Assembly: GCA_013824045.1 (NCBI GenBank)
Contig: PNND01000215.1
Span: 1 to 15,520, forward strand
Source: Rhodobacter sp.
GTDB lineage: Bacteria > Pseudomonadota > Alphaproteobacteria > Rhodobacterales > Rhodobacteraceae
Reading direction: 5' to 3'
DNA: 15,520 nucleotides
The position numbers and the translations under genes were made by a program. Within the stretch, counting starts at the first letter, position 1. Every line of letters starts with the position of its first letter. Of this stretch, positions 2,895 to 7,581 are shown in pieces. The notes beneath the pieces were generated by a model. The model made no database searches. It was not told where the DNA came from and saw nothing but the letters and a program-made list of their open reading frames with translations.

Positions 2895-2917
2895 TTAAAA
2901 ATTTAACGAAAGTTAAC
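2895..2917 (+). promoter_or_regulatory. TTAA triplet / CtrA-like direct repeat upstream of the first Hint gene
   Basis: Three TTAA boxes lie in an AT-rich island within the 224-bp dapE/Hint divergent spacer: 2895-2898, 2903-2906 and 2913-2916. The last two form TTAAC-GAAAG-TTAAC, with 6 nt between the TTAA cores and a 10-nt period. The canonical CtrA site is TTAA-N7-TTAA, so this is a one-base-shorter variant. It ends 38 nt before the ATG at 2956. The same TTAAC-N5-TTAAC arrangement precedes the paralogue at 6025. CtrA binding is inferred. Confidence 0.5.
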
Positions 2918-2955: not shown

Positions 2956-4536
2956 ATGCCGACGGGTGCAGAACTGACCTACAACACGGCCGCCACTGCC
3001 TTGCAGATGGCCGATGCGATCTTTGGCGATGGCGTGATCGTCCACAGTGCCACCTTTACGGGCGATCCGGCAGCGAGCGCGATCTATTCCAACGGGCAGC
3101 TTGCGCCGGGTGTGGTGCCATCAGACACCGGGGTGATCCTGTCCACCGGGCGGGTGGTGGATTTCACGCAGTCAAGCGGTGATCCGAACCGCTCGGCGGG
3201 GACGACGACGGATACCTCGGGGCCGAACAACAACGCGCTGTTCAACGCGCTCGCCGGGGCGAGCACCTTTGATGCGTCTTTTCTGGAAGTGAGTTTCACG
3301 CCATCGGGCAGCATGATGACGATGCGCTTTGTCTTCGCCTCCGAGGAATACCCGGAATACATCAACAGCAGTTTCAATGATGTGGTCGGCGTCTGGGTGA
3401 ATGGTGTGTCGGTGCCGATGACGGTGAATGGCGGCACGGCGAGTGTGAACAACATCAACGGTGCGACGCAGCAGAACCTGTTTGTCGACAACCAGACGGA
3501 CGCCTTCAACACCGAGATGGACGGGTTCACGGTGACGCTGTCGCTGTCGATCCCGGTCACGGCCGGGGTGCCGAACACGATCCGCATCGGAATCGCGGAT
3601 GTGGGGGATGCGGCCTTTGATTCAAATTTGCTGATTGCTGGGGATTCGATTCAGACGGCGATCATCGCTGCGGATGATAGTGAAACCATGGGGCCGAACG
3701 GGACACGCATCCTGCGGGTGCTGGACAATGACACGACCACGGTCGGGACGCTGGTAATCACCCATGTGAACGGCCAGCCCGTGGTGGCCGGGCAGACGAT
3801 CACGCTGGCATCCGGTGAGCAGATCACGCTGAACGCGGATGGCACATTTACCGCCGTGGCCAATGGCACGGTGGAGACGCAGAGCTTTACCTATACGGTA
3901 TCGAACGGGCAAGGCGGGACCGATGTCGGCATGGTGACGCTGGCGATGGTCCCCTGTTTCGTGGCCGGGACGCGGATCGCCACGCCGGGCGGGCCGGTGC
4001 TTGTCGAGGATCTGCGGCCCGGAGATATGGTGCTGACCCGGGATGACGGGGCGCAAGTCCTGCGCTGGATCGGGCGGCGGCGGGTGGCGGCGCGGGGGGC
4101 GTTTGCGCCGATCGCATTCGCGGCCGGGGCGCTGGGCGCGCATGGCGCGCTGCGGCTGTCGCCGGAGCATCGGGTGCTGGTGCAGGGCGGCATGGCCGAG
4201 ATCCTGTTTGCCGCATCGGAGGTGCTGGTCGCGGCGAAGCATCTGGTCAATGATCAAAGCATCCGGCGTGTGGTCGGGGGCGAAGTGGATTATCTGCATC
4301 TGCTGTTTGATCGGCATCAGGTGATCCTGGCCGAGGGGCTTGCCACCGAGAGTTTGTTCATCGGTGGGCAGGCGTTGGCCGCGCTAGAGCGGGATACAGT
4401 AGAGGAAATCCTTACGATTTTCCCCGAACTGGATCCCCGCACCGGAGAAGGTTATGGGCCGACTGCACGGCGCGTGTTGAAAGCCCATGAGGCTCAGGTC
4501 ATGATGCATGGCATGATGGTAAACGCTGCCGCCTGA
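2956..4536 (+). CDS. Choice-of-anchor L / cadherin-like / Hint domain protein (paralogue 1)
   Basis: A 526-residue predicted self-processing surface or secreted protein. Residues about 15-235 are a choice-of-anchor L domain (TFDASFLEVSF, FVFASEEYPEY, FNDVVGVWVNG, FVDNQTDAFNTEMDGFTV, ADVGDAAFDSNLLIAG). Residues about 238-330 look like a cadherin/VCBS-type Ig-fold (LRVLDNDTT, VNGQPVVAGQ, LNADGTFTA, FTYTVSNGQGG). A Hint domain starts at the predicted nucleophile C334 (PCFVAGTRIATPGG); the block-B motif SPEH has H405. A tail (about 470-526) ends in YGPTARRVLKAHEAQ. Hint proteins of this type cleave at the Cys; no C-terminal Asn splice motif is seen, so this is not an intein. No signal peptide, RTX repeat or membrane segment is visible. 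ATG 2956 is chosen over GTG 2929 because it aligns with the paralogue. The downstream Hint gene starts 1 nt after its stop. Confidence 0.88.
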   Translation: MPTGAELTYNTAATALQMADAIFGDGVIVHSATFTGDPAASAIYSNGQLAPGVVPSDTGVILSTGRVVDFTQSSGDPNRSAGTTTDTSGPNNNALFNALAGASTFDASFLEVSFTPSGSMMTMRFVFASEEYPEYINSSFNDVVGVWVNGVSVPMTVNGGTASVNNINGATQQNLFVDNQTDAFNTEMDGFTVTLSLSIPVTAGVPNTIRIGIADVGDAAFDSNLLIAGDSIQTAIIAADDSETMGPNGTRILRVLDNDTTTVGTLVITHVNGQPVVAGQTITLASGEQITLNADGTFTAVANGTVETQSFTYTVSNGQGGTDVGMVTLAMVPCFVAGTRIATPGGPVLVEDLRPGDMVLTRDDGAQVLRWIGRRRVAARGAFAPIAFAAGALGAHGALRLSPEHRVLVQGGMAEILFAASEVLVAAKHLVNDQSIRRVVGGEVDYLHLLFDRHQVILAEGLATESLFIGGQALAALERDTVEEILTIFPELDPRTGEGYGPTARRVLKAHEAQVMMHGMMVNAAA

Positions 4537-4537
4537 T

Positions 4538-5527
4538 TTGACCCGCTGGATCGCCTTGTCCGACCAGCCGGACCCGCCCGGAGCGCCGGTGTCGGGTGAT
4601 CTTTCGCATGGGCTTTTAGTGTTCGAGATCGAGATGCCGCTGGCGGGGGCGGGCGTCTTGCTGGACCTGCGTGCGGGCAGCGGGGCGGAGGAAGTGGCGC
4701 TGTCGCTGTTTCACGATCTGGGGGCGGGGGTGGCGCTGCTCCATCGGCAGGGCGGGCGGGTGCTGCGCCATGTGCTGCCGGGGCCCTTGCCGCAGAAGCT
4801 GGGCGTGGCGCGGCTGAGTTTCGGCTGGGACATGCGCGGGCGCGGCTGGTGGATGGAGATGGATCTTGCCGGGCAGCGGCTGATGGCGCAGGGCGAGGCG
4901 GCCATGCCGATCCGGCTGGCGGACCTGAGGGCGCTGTGTGCGGGCGGGGCCGGGGTGCTGCGGCATCCGTCGGTGCTGTGGTTCGGGGCGATGCAGGGCG
5001 CGGCGAGGCCCGCGCCGCTGGGGTGGCTGGGGGTGGCGACACCGGTGAGCACCCGGCAGGGGCCGGTGGCGGCGGGGGCGTTGCGGCCCGGGGATCGGGT
5101 GATCACGCGCGACCATGGGGCGGTGGCGCTGGTGGCGGTGACGCGGGTGCAGGCGCCCAGCCGGGGGAGCATGGCGCCGATCCGGCTGCGCGCGCCCTAT
5201 TTCGGGCAGGAGGGCGACATGCTGGTGTCGCCGGATCAGCCGATCTGCATATCCGGGGAAGAGACGGAATATCTGTTCGGGGCGGAAGAGGTGCTGGTTC
5301 TGGCGCGGCATCTGGCGGATGGGCAGATGGCGGTGGTCGACAGCCGCCGGGCGGTGGCGGTGGGTGTGGTGCTGGATCTGGGGACGGCGGAACTGATCGA
5401 GGCGGATGGCTGCTGGCTGGCCACGGGCGGGCCCGAGGGCATGGCCCCGGCCCGGCGGCTGTTGGACCCATATGAGGCGCTGCCGCTGCGCACGGCGCTG
5501 GAGCGGTTGCAGCGGCGGGTGGTGTGA
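4538..5527 (+). CDS. Hint-fold protein with degenerate catalytic residues, TTG start
   Basis: 329 residues. The N-terminal half (about 1-150) has a beta-rich, LamG-like look (LLFDLRAGSG-like strands, WDMRGRGWWMEMDLAGQRL); this assignment is tentative. The C-terminal half is a Hint domain that aligns without gaps to its two neighbours: ALRPGDRVITRDHGAV, MAPIRLRAPYFG, YLFGAEEVLVLARHLADGQ. The nucleophile position is W163 instead of Cys and the block-B His position is Q234, with the same 71-residue spacing as in both paralogues. Autocleavage is therefore unlikely, and a structural, binding or inhibitory role is an inference. It starts with TTG 1 nt after the TGA of the upstream Hint gene (translational coupling); the TRWIALSDQ N-terminus supports this start, and no ATG occurs nearby. 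No signal peptide is visible. It converges on a small minus-strand gene 4 bp away. Confidence 0.82.
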   Translation: MTRWIALSDQPDPPGAPVSGDLSHGLLVFEIEMPLAGAGVLLDLRAGSGAEEVALSLFHDLGAGVALLHRQGGRVLRHVLPGPLPQKLGVARLSFGWDMRGRGWWMEMDLAGQRLMAQGEAAMPIRLADLRALCAGGAGVLRHPSVLWFGAMQGAARPAPLGWLGVATPVSTRQGPVAAGALRPGDRVITRDHGAVALVAVTRVQAPSRGSMAPIRLRAPYFGQEGDMLVSPDQPICISGEETEYLFGAEEVLVLARHLADGQMAVVDSRRAVAVGVVLDLGTAELIEADGCWLATGGPEGMAPARRLLDPYEALPLRTALERLQRRVV

Positions 5528-5531
5528 CGGG

Positions 5532-5873
5532 TCAGTCGTAGAAGGGGGTCATCTGGGCGACGATGACCGAGTTTTCATCCAGCGCACGTTGCATCAGGGC
5601 GCGTTCGTCGGCATCAATGTCATCCCCGCCCTTGAGACGATCTTCCAGCGTGCCGTAACCGGACACGTCAAGGGGCGCGAGATCTGCCTGTTTCAGGATG
5701 GCGACGGTTTCGCGGACGGCCTCATCCTCGTCGACCCCGGAGGCGTAGATCATCAGCGCGGCCCCGGTGGATTTTTCGGGCAGGCCGTCGCCGGGCTTGC
5801 GGCCCACTTCGACCACCAGCGTATAGACCTGCTGCGGGCGCTTTTCGCGCTTGGGGGGAGGGGCTTCGGTCAT
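5532..5873 (-). CDS. Conserved hypothetical protein (113 aa)
   Basis: A 113-residue acidic, soluble protein with no signal peptide or membrane segment. The core reads QQVYTLVVEVGR, ALMIYASGVDEDEAVRETV and ILKQADLAPLDVSGYGTLEDR, and it ends in VIVAQMTPFYD. The alternating hydrophobic strand at the start and the helix with regular acidic residues suggest a small alpha/beta fold, possibly ferredoxin-like or ACT-like; this is a guess. I recognise it as a conserved short protein of Rhodobacteraceae but know no function. The frame continues 19 codons upstream, but the ATG at 5873 is preferred: a GAGG lies just before it and the upstream residues look non-coding. It is convergent with the degenerate Hint gene and divergent from the second full-length Hint gene, so it may share the 5874-6024 promoter region. 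Confidence 0.8.
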   Translation of the reverse strand: MTEAPPPKREKRPQQVYTLVVEVGRKPGDGLPEKSTGAALMIYASGVDEDEAVRETVAILKQADLAPLDVSGYGTLEDRLKGGDDIDADERALMQRALDENSVIVAQMTPFYD

Positions 5874-5963
5874 GGTGGGCCTCGGTGATGGATGCCGGCC
5901 AGCGATAGCATCCCCGGGCGGAGAGCGCAAAGCGGCCGCGTGGGGGGCCTCTCTGACAGATAA

Positions 5964-5978
5964 TTAACATTTTTTAAC
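5964..5978 (+). promoter_or_regulatory. CtrA-like TTAAC-N5-TTAAC repeat upstream of the second Hint gene
   Basis: TTAA at 5964-5967 and 5974-5977, each followed by C, separated by 6 nt, in an AT-rich stretch (about 5961-5982) of otherwise GC-rich DNA. It ends 46 nt before the ATG at 6025. The spacing is identical to the site at 2903-2917 upstream of the paralogue. It lies in the 151-bp divergent spacer, so it could also affect the minus-strand gene starting at 5873. Confidence 0.5.
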
Positions 5979-6024
5979 AAAAGGTCGTTCTGCGGTTCTG
6001 AGAGAATTCCGGGAGCCTGCACCC

Positions 6025-7581
6025 ATGTCTGCATCAGAACTGAAGATCGAGTCGGCCGCTGCCGAGCAGATGGCCGAGACCATCTTTGGCGAAGGGGTCA
6101 AGATCGTTTCGGCCAGCTTCACCGGCGCGGATGGGCAGGTGGGCATCTATTCCGGTGCGGATGAGACCATGCCGGGGGTTGCCCCATCGGACCGGGGGTT
6201 GATCCTTTCGACAGGCCGGGTGTCGGATTTCACCCGGAGCGAGGGGGATGCCAATATCTCGGAGGGCACGTCGACCAACTTCGCGGGGCGGGGCGATGAC
6301 ATGCTGAGCCGGGTGTCCGGGCAGACCACCTTTGACGCGGCGGTGTTCGAGGCGAGTTTCGTGCCGACGGGGGATGTTCTGACGATGCAGATCGTCTGGT
6401 CGTCGGAGGAATATCTGGAATATGTCAATTCCGGCTTTAACGATGCCTTTGCTGTCTGGGTCAATGATGTGCCGGCGGAGTTGGTGTTGGGTGCGGGAAG
6501 CATTTCCATCGACAACATCAACAACAAGGTGAATTCGAACCTCTATGTCGATAACGCGGCGGCTTCGAACACCTACAATACCGAGATGGACGGGTTTACC
6601 GTCACGCTGACGCTGAAGGTGCCGGTTCGGGCGGGCGAGGTGAATACCTTTCGCATGGCGATCGCGGATTCGGGGGATGGTGCCTTTGACTCGGCCGTGC
6701 TGGTGGCGGCGGGGTCGGTGCAGGTGGGGCTGATCGCGCTTGATGACGAGATGTCGATCCGCAAGGGCGATCTGGCGAAGCTGGATGTGCTGGGCAATGA
6801 CAAATCGAGCGTTGGCGCGATGTTGAAGGTGACCAAGATCAACGGCATCGCTGTGGAGGCCGGGGACAGCGTGAAGCTGCCCACGGGGGAAATCATCACC
6901 TTGGACAAGGACGGGGTGCTGCATGTGCAGTCGGTCGACAGCCTTGAGGACCGGGTGCTGACCTATGAGGTCACCGACAGCATGGGCAATACCGACGTGG
7001 CCTTTGTGACACTGTCGATGTTGGCTTGCTTTACCGAAGGGACGTTGATCGATGTGCCGGGCGGGCGGGTTGCGGTGGAGGGGTTGGTGCCGGGGGATAT
7101 GGTTCGGACGCGGGATCACGGGGCGCAGCCGCTGCGCTGGATGGGGCGTGTGGTACGGGCGGCGGTGGGCGTGGATGCGCCGGTGGAGATCGCGGCGGGG
7201 ACGCTGGGGGATCACACGACGCTGCGTCTGTCGGGCAATCATCGGGTGCTGGTGGGCGGCGTGCGGGCGGAGTTGCTGTTCGGTGAGGCGGAGGTGCTGG
7301 TGAAGGCCAAGCATCTGGTGGACGGTCGCGCAGTGCGGGTCGTGGAGGGGGGCGAGGTGACCTATCTTCACCTGCTGTTCGACCGGCATGAGGTGGTGAC
7401 GGCGAACGGGTTGGATTGCGAGAGCTATTTCCCCGGCGACTGCACGATGAAAGGCTTCGACGCCGAAGTGCAGGATGAGATCCTGCGGTTGATGCCGAAA
7501 CTGCGAGAAGGGATGGCGGGGTTCGGGCCGCTGGCGCGGGCGGAGGTCAAGGCGGGCGAGGCGCGGCTGTTGATGCGATAG
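6025..7581 (+). CDS. Choice-of-anchor L / cadherin-like / Hint domain protein (paralogue 2)
   Basis: 518 residues, collinear with the protein at 2956 and clearly paralogous. The choice-of-anchor L domain spans about residues 12-235 (TFDAAVFEASFVPTGD, SSEEYLEYVNSGFNDAF, LYVDNAA, TEMDGFTVTLTL, ADSGDGAFDSAVLVAAGS). An Ig/cadherin-like domain follows (LDVLGNDKSS, INGIAVEAGD, LDKDGVLHV, LTYEVTDSMGN), then Hint from predicted nucleophile C335 (LACFTEGTLIDVPGG) with block-B SGNH (H406). The Hint domain continues through YLHLLFDRHEVVTANGL, and the tail ends FGPLARAEVKAGEARLLMR. C-to-H spacing is 71, as in the paralogue. A GGGAG Shine-Dalgarno lies about 9 nt before the ATG. It is monocistronic: a terminator-like hairpin and a repeat motif follow. 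No signal peptide is visible, so the export route is unknown. It probably arose by duplication within the cluster and then diverged. Confidence 0.88.
   Translation: MSASELKIESAAAEQMAETIFGEGVKIVSASFTGADGQVGIYSGADETMPGVAPSDRGLILSTGRVSDFTRSEGDANISEGTSTNFAGRGDDMLSRVSGQTTFDAAVFEASFVPTGDVLTMQIVWSSEEYLEYVNSGFNDAFAVWVNDVPAELVLGAGSISIDNINNKVNSNLYVDNAAASNTYNTEMDGFTVTLTLKVPVRAGEVNTFRMAIADSGDGAFDSAVLVAAGSVQVGLIALDDEMSIRKGDLAKLDVLGNDKSSVGAMLKVTKINGIAVEAGDSVKLPTGEIITLDKDGVLHVQSVDSLEDRVLTYEVTDSMGNTDVAFVTLSMLACFTEGTLIDVPGGRVAVEGLVPGDMVRTRDHGAQPLRWMGRVVRAAVGVDAPVEIAAGTLGDHTTLRLSGNHRVLVGGVRAELLFGEAEVLVKAKHLVDGRAVRVVEGGEVTYLHLLFDRHEVVTANGLDCESYFPGDCTMKGFDAEVQDEILRLMPKLREGMAGFGPLARAEVKAGEARLLMR

Follow-up and report, generated by a model that had tools for sequence, protein, structure and literature searches.

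The window, meaning the whole 15,520-nucleotide (nt) stretch of Rhodobacter sp. DNA analysed here (GenBank assembly GCA_013824045.1, contig PNND01000215.1, forward strand), carries three genes, A, B and C (proteins P0001, P0002 and P0003), that encode Hint domains, which are known as self-cutters. A has an active-type Hint and lies directly upstream of B, in which a lectin-like domain is joined to a Hint without the catalytic Cys and His; C is a paralogue of A. The features are, with lengths in amino acids (aa):

2956..4536, +, gene A, choice-of-anchor L, Big_9 and active-type Hint_2 domains, 526 aa
3004..3648, +, choice-of-anchor L domain of A
3661..3942, +, immunoglobulin (Ig)-like Big_9 domain of A, fold akin to the split domain of FrhA/MpAFP
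3952..4365, +, Hint_2 of A (Cys334 codon 3955-3957; His405 codon 4168-4170)
4366..4533, +, C-terminal tail of A, resembling the tails of RTX-Hint proteins
4538..5527, +, gene B, lectin-like jelly roll and pseudo-Hint, 329 aa, TTG start
4538..5017, +, jelly-roll domain of B (LamG/CBM40-like fold)
5015..5428, +, pseudo-Hint of B (Cys1 place taken by Trp163, codon 5024-5026; block-B His place taken by Gln234, codon 5237-5239)
5532..5930, -, 132-aa open reading frame (ORF) between B and C, conserved in 59/80 loci
6025..7581, +, gene C, paralogue of A, 518 aa (Hint 7024-7440; Cys335 codon 7027-7029)

The start of A was set at ATG 2956, GTG 2929 also being in open frame. Both A and C matched the choice-of-anchor L profile NF038133 (expectation value (E) 5e-49, 167 bits and E 1e-52, 179 bits, respectively; cut-off 27) and the Hint_2 profile PF13403 (E 7e-51, 173 bits and E 1e-45, 156 bits; cut-off 28.4), while the Ig-like module matched Big_9 in A (E 7e-8) and, under the gathering cut-off, in C (E 4e-4). 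The Hint of A has C334, the only Cys of the whole protein, with H405, D452 and H454, and that of C has C335 and the same residue set, so that each carries the Cys1 and block-B His of a self-cleaving Hint. A cut at Cys334 would give halves of 34.1 and 20.6 kDa, as computed from the sequence. B also matched PF13403 (E 1e-22, 81 bits), and in the alignment W163 occupies the Cys1 place and Q234 stands in place of the block-B His, both residues of a self-cleaving Hint thus being absent; the aligned ranges begin at residue 163, which faces residue 1 in several inteins and C258 in hedgehog 1at0. The N-terminal part of B has the jelly-roll fold of ConA/LamG/CBM40-like lectins, by which B is a putative lectin, and a Pfam profile search returned no match for this part.

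The original prediction of two choice-of-anchor L paralogues with Hint Cys and His, and of a middle gene whose Hint has neither, is borne out by these matches, as are the expected ~35- and ~20-kDa halves of A. The TTG start of B (4538) lies 1 base past the A stop. Between B and C is the minus-strand ORF, for which Pfam and NCBIfam profiles gave no match, and its position makes it unlikely that C shares an A-B transcript. A and B form an adjacent pair from which the paralogue C stands apart, unlike the three-gene cluster first proposed.

Catalytic residues and origin of B

Loci of relatives were found with one peptide pattern in a scan of named genomes, the best 80 of 276 being retained. Catalytic columns were scored in 55 A-type Hints (P0001 and P0003, with 53 ORFs of these loci, which had been picked by B), in the 80 B loci, in 121 B proteins (P0002 plus 120 homologues out of 122 found) and in six others. 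Cys, Ser, His, Asp and His were kept in 54/55 A-type Hints, the lone exception being a broken 253-aa ORF in L056. At the Cys1 place, the 80 B loci had Trp (28), Thr (20), Ser (16), Gly (8), Ala (6) or Cys (2), and at the block-B His place Gln (77), Ala (2) or His (1); among the 121 B proteins, Trp and Gln were found at these places in 119 and 120, respectively.

A tree of 85 Hint domains took in every third row of A and of B together with 37 further domains. All of its 28 B rows fell on one side of a branch (100/100) with a long stem (1.24), and its 20 A-type rows likewise on one side of another (98/89). Judged by this tree, B is a conserved family of single origin. The earliest-branching B rows, L089 and L095, retain Cys1 and the later Asp-x-His, yet have Gln at the block-B His; because these first-branching proteins keep Cys1 but carry Gln, the tree suggests, from one small branch and a midpoint root, that the His-to-Gln change preceded loss of Cys1 in B. 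The two proteins may be a halfway stage of residue loss. As the C-type Hints (P0003 and downstream copies of L043 and L079) group on a branch of their own (100/98), C looks like an old paralogue retained in scattered loci.

B was matched at E 1e-30 in 3/289 class-wide genomes, all of the window's own family (Rhodobacteraceae), in a scan that scored at most seven candidates per genome and that distant B forms could escape. Most of the 80 locus titles are of Rhodobacteraceae type; the titles of L065 (Exiguobacterium) and L076 (Enemella) were taken as mislabelled.

Ratios of nonsynonymous to synonymous change (dN/dS, NG86) for B were 0.19 against L041 and 0.23 against L042. Those for A were 0.18, 0.21 and 0.24 (L041, L042 and L043) and those for dapE 0.09-0.12 (L041, L042, L043 and L064); the A value for L064 (0.53) and the C value for L042 (0.57) were paralogue comparisons and went unused. 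By these ratios B is under purifying selection among near relatives, and it is in one frame in 78/80 loci, a contig end truncating one of these. B as a functionless, decaying relic of an A-like duplicate would agree with its lost catalytic residues, with apparent splitting across two frames in L061 and L065 and with the lack of a full CtrA-like site before it in 33 loci without A (below), but the low near-relative dN/dS, the single frame at nearly all loci and the identical Gln-for-His in 77/80 leave this scarcely credible.

Locus conservation and A-B pairing

Counting loci cut by contig ends, dapE was found near B in 77/80 and dapD in 54/80. With dapE, the 132-aa ORF and dapD recurring around B, the A-B pair is an old resident of one locus. 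Two of the 80 loci lay at a contig edge; among the other 78, A was directly upstream of B in 46 (in L056 as a broken gene), in keeping with the co-occurrence predicted for relatives, and 32 had B without an upstream A, which argues that any joint action of the two is not obligatory. The A-B gap was between -5 and +14 nt in 39/46 loci, B starts being guessed by motif (ATG, GTG or TTG in 33/46). Sulfitobacter mediterraneus DSM 12244 (L091) is one named carrier of the pair. A further A-type gene was present downstream in 4/46 A-B loci, and in 2/32 loci without an upstream A (L047, L064) one lay downstream of B. The three-gene unit was consequently rejected as a conserved module on the 4/46 count, and a strict partnership of B with A was weakened by the 32/78.

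Genomes of 25 of these 32 loci were searched for choice-of-anchor L. Among the matches listed, at least seven hold a near-whole choice-of-anchor L and Ig part elsewhere (in G213 within a 543-aa A-like gene, in the other six within ORFs 653 to 2613 aa long), two more (G200, G221) a partial one, and 16 no choice-of-anchor L part, whole or partial. In G198, G199, G201 and G205, which have no A beside B, parts like the choice-of-anchor L and Ig of A lie in 1050-2613-aa ORFs elsewhere, with Hint matches apparently in the same frames.

Across 61 family genomes (one per genus, and not independent), B was found in 29, in 28 by a profile over both domains and in G011 by a Hint-part match beside A. A strong choice-of-anchor L match, defined by our own cut of E below 1e-30 and excluding three weaker matches in 2538-2975-aa ORFs, was present in 24 genomes, and B in 21 of these 24 vs 8/37 of the remainder (Fisher p 4e-7, hand tally). 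A was directly upstream of B in 18 and only downstream in G027. Median distances were 1.25 for the B jelly roll (the fastest), 0.68 for the B Hint, 0.56 for the A N-terminal part, 0.41 for the A Hint and 0.34 for dapE. After removal of dapE, A and B distances correlated over 44 loci: 0.59 for A N-part vs B Hint and 0.41 for A N-part vs B jelly roll (each 0/2000 permutations as high), 0.46 for A Hint vs B Hint (2/2000) and 0.31 for A Hint vs B jelly roll (6/2000), on a scale where A N-part vs A Hint gave 0.48.

The adjacency and close spacing of A and B, their co-occurrence across the family and these correlations would all suit a dedicated regulator, in which the dead Hint of B would pair with the Hint or the tail of A to hold, position or activate it, prozyme-like, with the lectin as sensor or tether. 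This explanation retains weight because of the adjacency and co-variation, but co-inheritance of a linked cassette would also yield correlated distances, 32/78 loci retain B with no A upstream, and 16/25 of the A-less genomes searched have no choice-of-anchor L among the matches listed; we regard it as rather unlikely. The more general proposal that the middle protein is a helper of A fits the conservation of B, its purifying selection and its position, with the correction that B is not a helper of A only.

B might instead serve Hint_2 proteins at large, such as RTX-Hint proteins, A being merely the nearest. Of the 61 family genomes, 53 have Hint_2 matches, from 2 to 21 each; the 29 that bear B have 5 to 21, B counted, and all 25 B-without-A genomes searched hold other P0001-like Hint matches at E 1e-37 or better, a measure of similarity only. 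Hint_2-rich genomes without B nevertheless exist (e.g. G007 with 13 matches, G039 with 11), and absence of B from Hint_2-less genomes is uninformative, B itself being a Hint_2 match; this wider role appears improbable.

Export and CtrA-like sites

No RTX-like motifs (nonapeptide repeats) precede the Hint of A or of C. The tail of A, however, scored 94 against the tail of L003, an RTX-Hint protein encoded in the same genome (500 shuffles: mean 22, maximum 43) and 71 against that of the RTX-Hint protein L007 (shuffle maximum 45); values of 62 and 55 were obtained with L002 and L001, Hint ORFs with no RTX-like motifs in the stretch examined (shuffle maxima 39 and 38). The tail of C is like that of A; the B tail was compared with others by eye only. 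At least two RTX-like motifs precede the Hint in 29/39 Hint ORFs (nine of this genome and the 30 best matches of other genomes), many of the 39 have a tail of the LFPEL...AR..LK.HEA type, and the genome encodes a PrtD-type permease (640 bits; cut-off 510). We infer that A is exported by type I secretion, with the tail as putative signal. Contrary to the earlier statement that no RTX repeat or signal peptide explains export, the RTX-Hint-like tail and the Ig module of A thus provide a lead. This module is similar in fold to the split domains of the RTX adhesins FrhA and MpAFP, from which A differs in having no RTX-like motifs before the Hint and in bearing a Hint.

Two sites precede A and C:

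2903..2917, no strand assigned, CtrA-like TTAAC-N5-TTAAC before A
5964..5978, no strand assigned, CtrA-like TTAAC-N5-TTAAC before C

They are the only TTAAC-N5-TTAAC sites in the window, and both are palindromic. Passages of PMC6180460 give the CtrA site as TTAA(N7)TTAA and propose a spacing of 6 bp at two promoters of R. sphaeroides, and TTAA-N7-TTAAC is used as CtrA site for Dinoroseobacter in part of PMC4046655. With related loci counted separately, TTAA-N6/7-TTAA occurs before A in 11/46 loci (dinucleotide shuffles: mean 0.21, maximum 3 in 100 rounds) and before C-type genes in 3/7 (shuffle mean 0.01), and GTTAA[CT] before A in 29/46 (mean 4.95, maximum 10). Upstream of B in the 33 loci without A, where the stretch is GC-richer and may extend into dapE, the counts were 0 and 2 for the two motifs (shuffle means 0.00 and 1.14). 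CtrA control of A, and of C, is a fair guess from these sites.

Interpretation of the A-B pair

The reading that we favour, held as a whole at a little under an even chance, is that A and C are adhesins exported to the cell surface, most likely through type I secretion, with self-cutting or attaching Hints, and that B is a co-produced lectin held uncut by its dead Hint. The C-terminal Hint of A would form a thioester at Cys334, through which the acidic 34-kDa adhesin part would be cut off or passed on. B would be co-translated and co-exported with its C-terminal Hint frozen by the change of block-B His to Gln and the loss of Cys1 (the His probably first), the lectin never being severed from a Hint-plus-tail module that we take as the export and docking part. 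With A released or attached and B whole, the two would jointly make up a two-part adhesive surface, turned on with the CtrA programme. This plain reading of B, a lectin on an uncuttable export module that acts with A, is ranked above a regulator because B occurs without A at many loci.

Several observations weigh against this scheme: the A of L056 is broken; 32/78 loci have B without an upstream A; B is missing from 3 of the 24 genomes with a strong choice-of-anchor L match; B dN/dS rises to 0.49 (L043) and 0.56 (L064) against more distant relatives; B is apparently split in 2/80 loci; the full CtrA-like site is absent before A in 35/46 A-first loci; and the predicted structure of A is partly of low confidence in the choice-of-anchor L region.

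A C-terminal His-Asn motif was not seen in the aligned Hints, so a thioester of A would have to react with water or an external acceptor, as that of hedgehog does (PMC7765530, in part). The hedgehog Hog domain is among the known systems nearest to the pair. B itself, encoded next to A, could be the nucleophile donor to which the thioester is handed, covalently joining adhesin and lectin, but the 17 invariant columns of a 36-row B alignment hold no Lys, Cys or Ser and we consider such joining very improbable. Possible, if doubtful, is a role in which B is a dedicated pseudo-Hint, kept through family history to control where, when or to what the A thioester is spent, within a CtrA-timed, type-I-exported two-part adhesin.

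B differs from Hint_2 (PF13403) and bacterial intein-like (BIL) domains in being without Cys1 and the block-B His. No description of a live/dead Hint pair was found among the full-text search results listed, in which subscription journals are few, and B, if it is a dedicated pseudo-Hint, would be the first one traced there. In its conserved dead copy beside a live one, the pair recalls the prozyme-type dead paralogues of trypanosome AdoMetDC (sections of PMC5201418). A conserved dead Hint of single origin, on a lectin-like domain and beside a live one, offers a natural experiment on non-cutting roles of the fold and prompts one to ask what a self-cutting domain does when it is dead and yet lastingly retained. 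The pair is also a handle on Hint_2 domains, which most of the family genomes searched carry and which, in part of PMC12487129, are listed as enriched in fast-growing marine bloom bacteria.

Other small Hint ORFs were seen. In the genome of the window, L005 (G000:C7) is a stand-alone ORF of 222 aa whose Hint is of active type (CFARGT), and L009 (G000:C164) is a Hint ORF of 204 aa in which Gly occupies the Cys1 place. In Pseudorhodobacter-titled loci, small Hint ORFs that lack Cys1 lie between B and dapD (L048:4126-4866 and 5011-5631; L062:6857-7567; L070:9530-10174), perhaps a further dead-Hint group.
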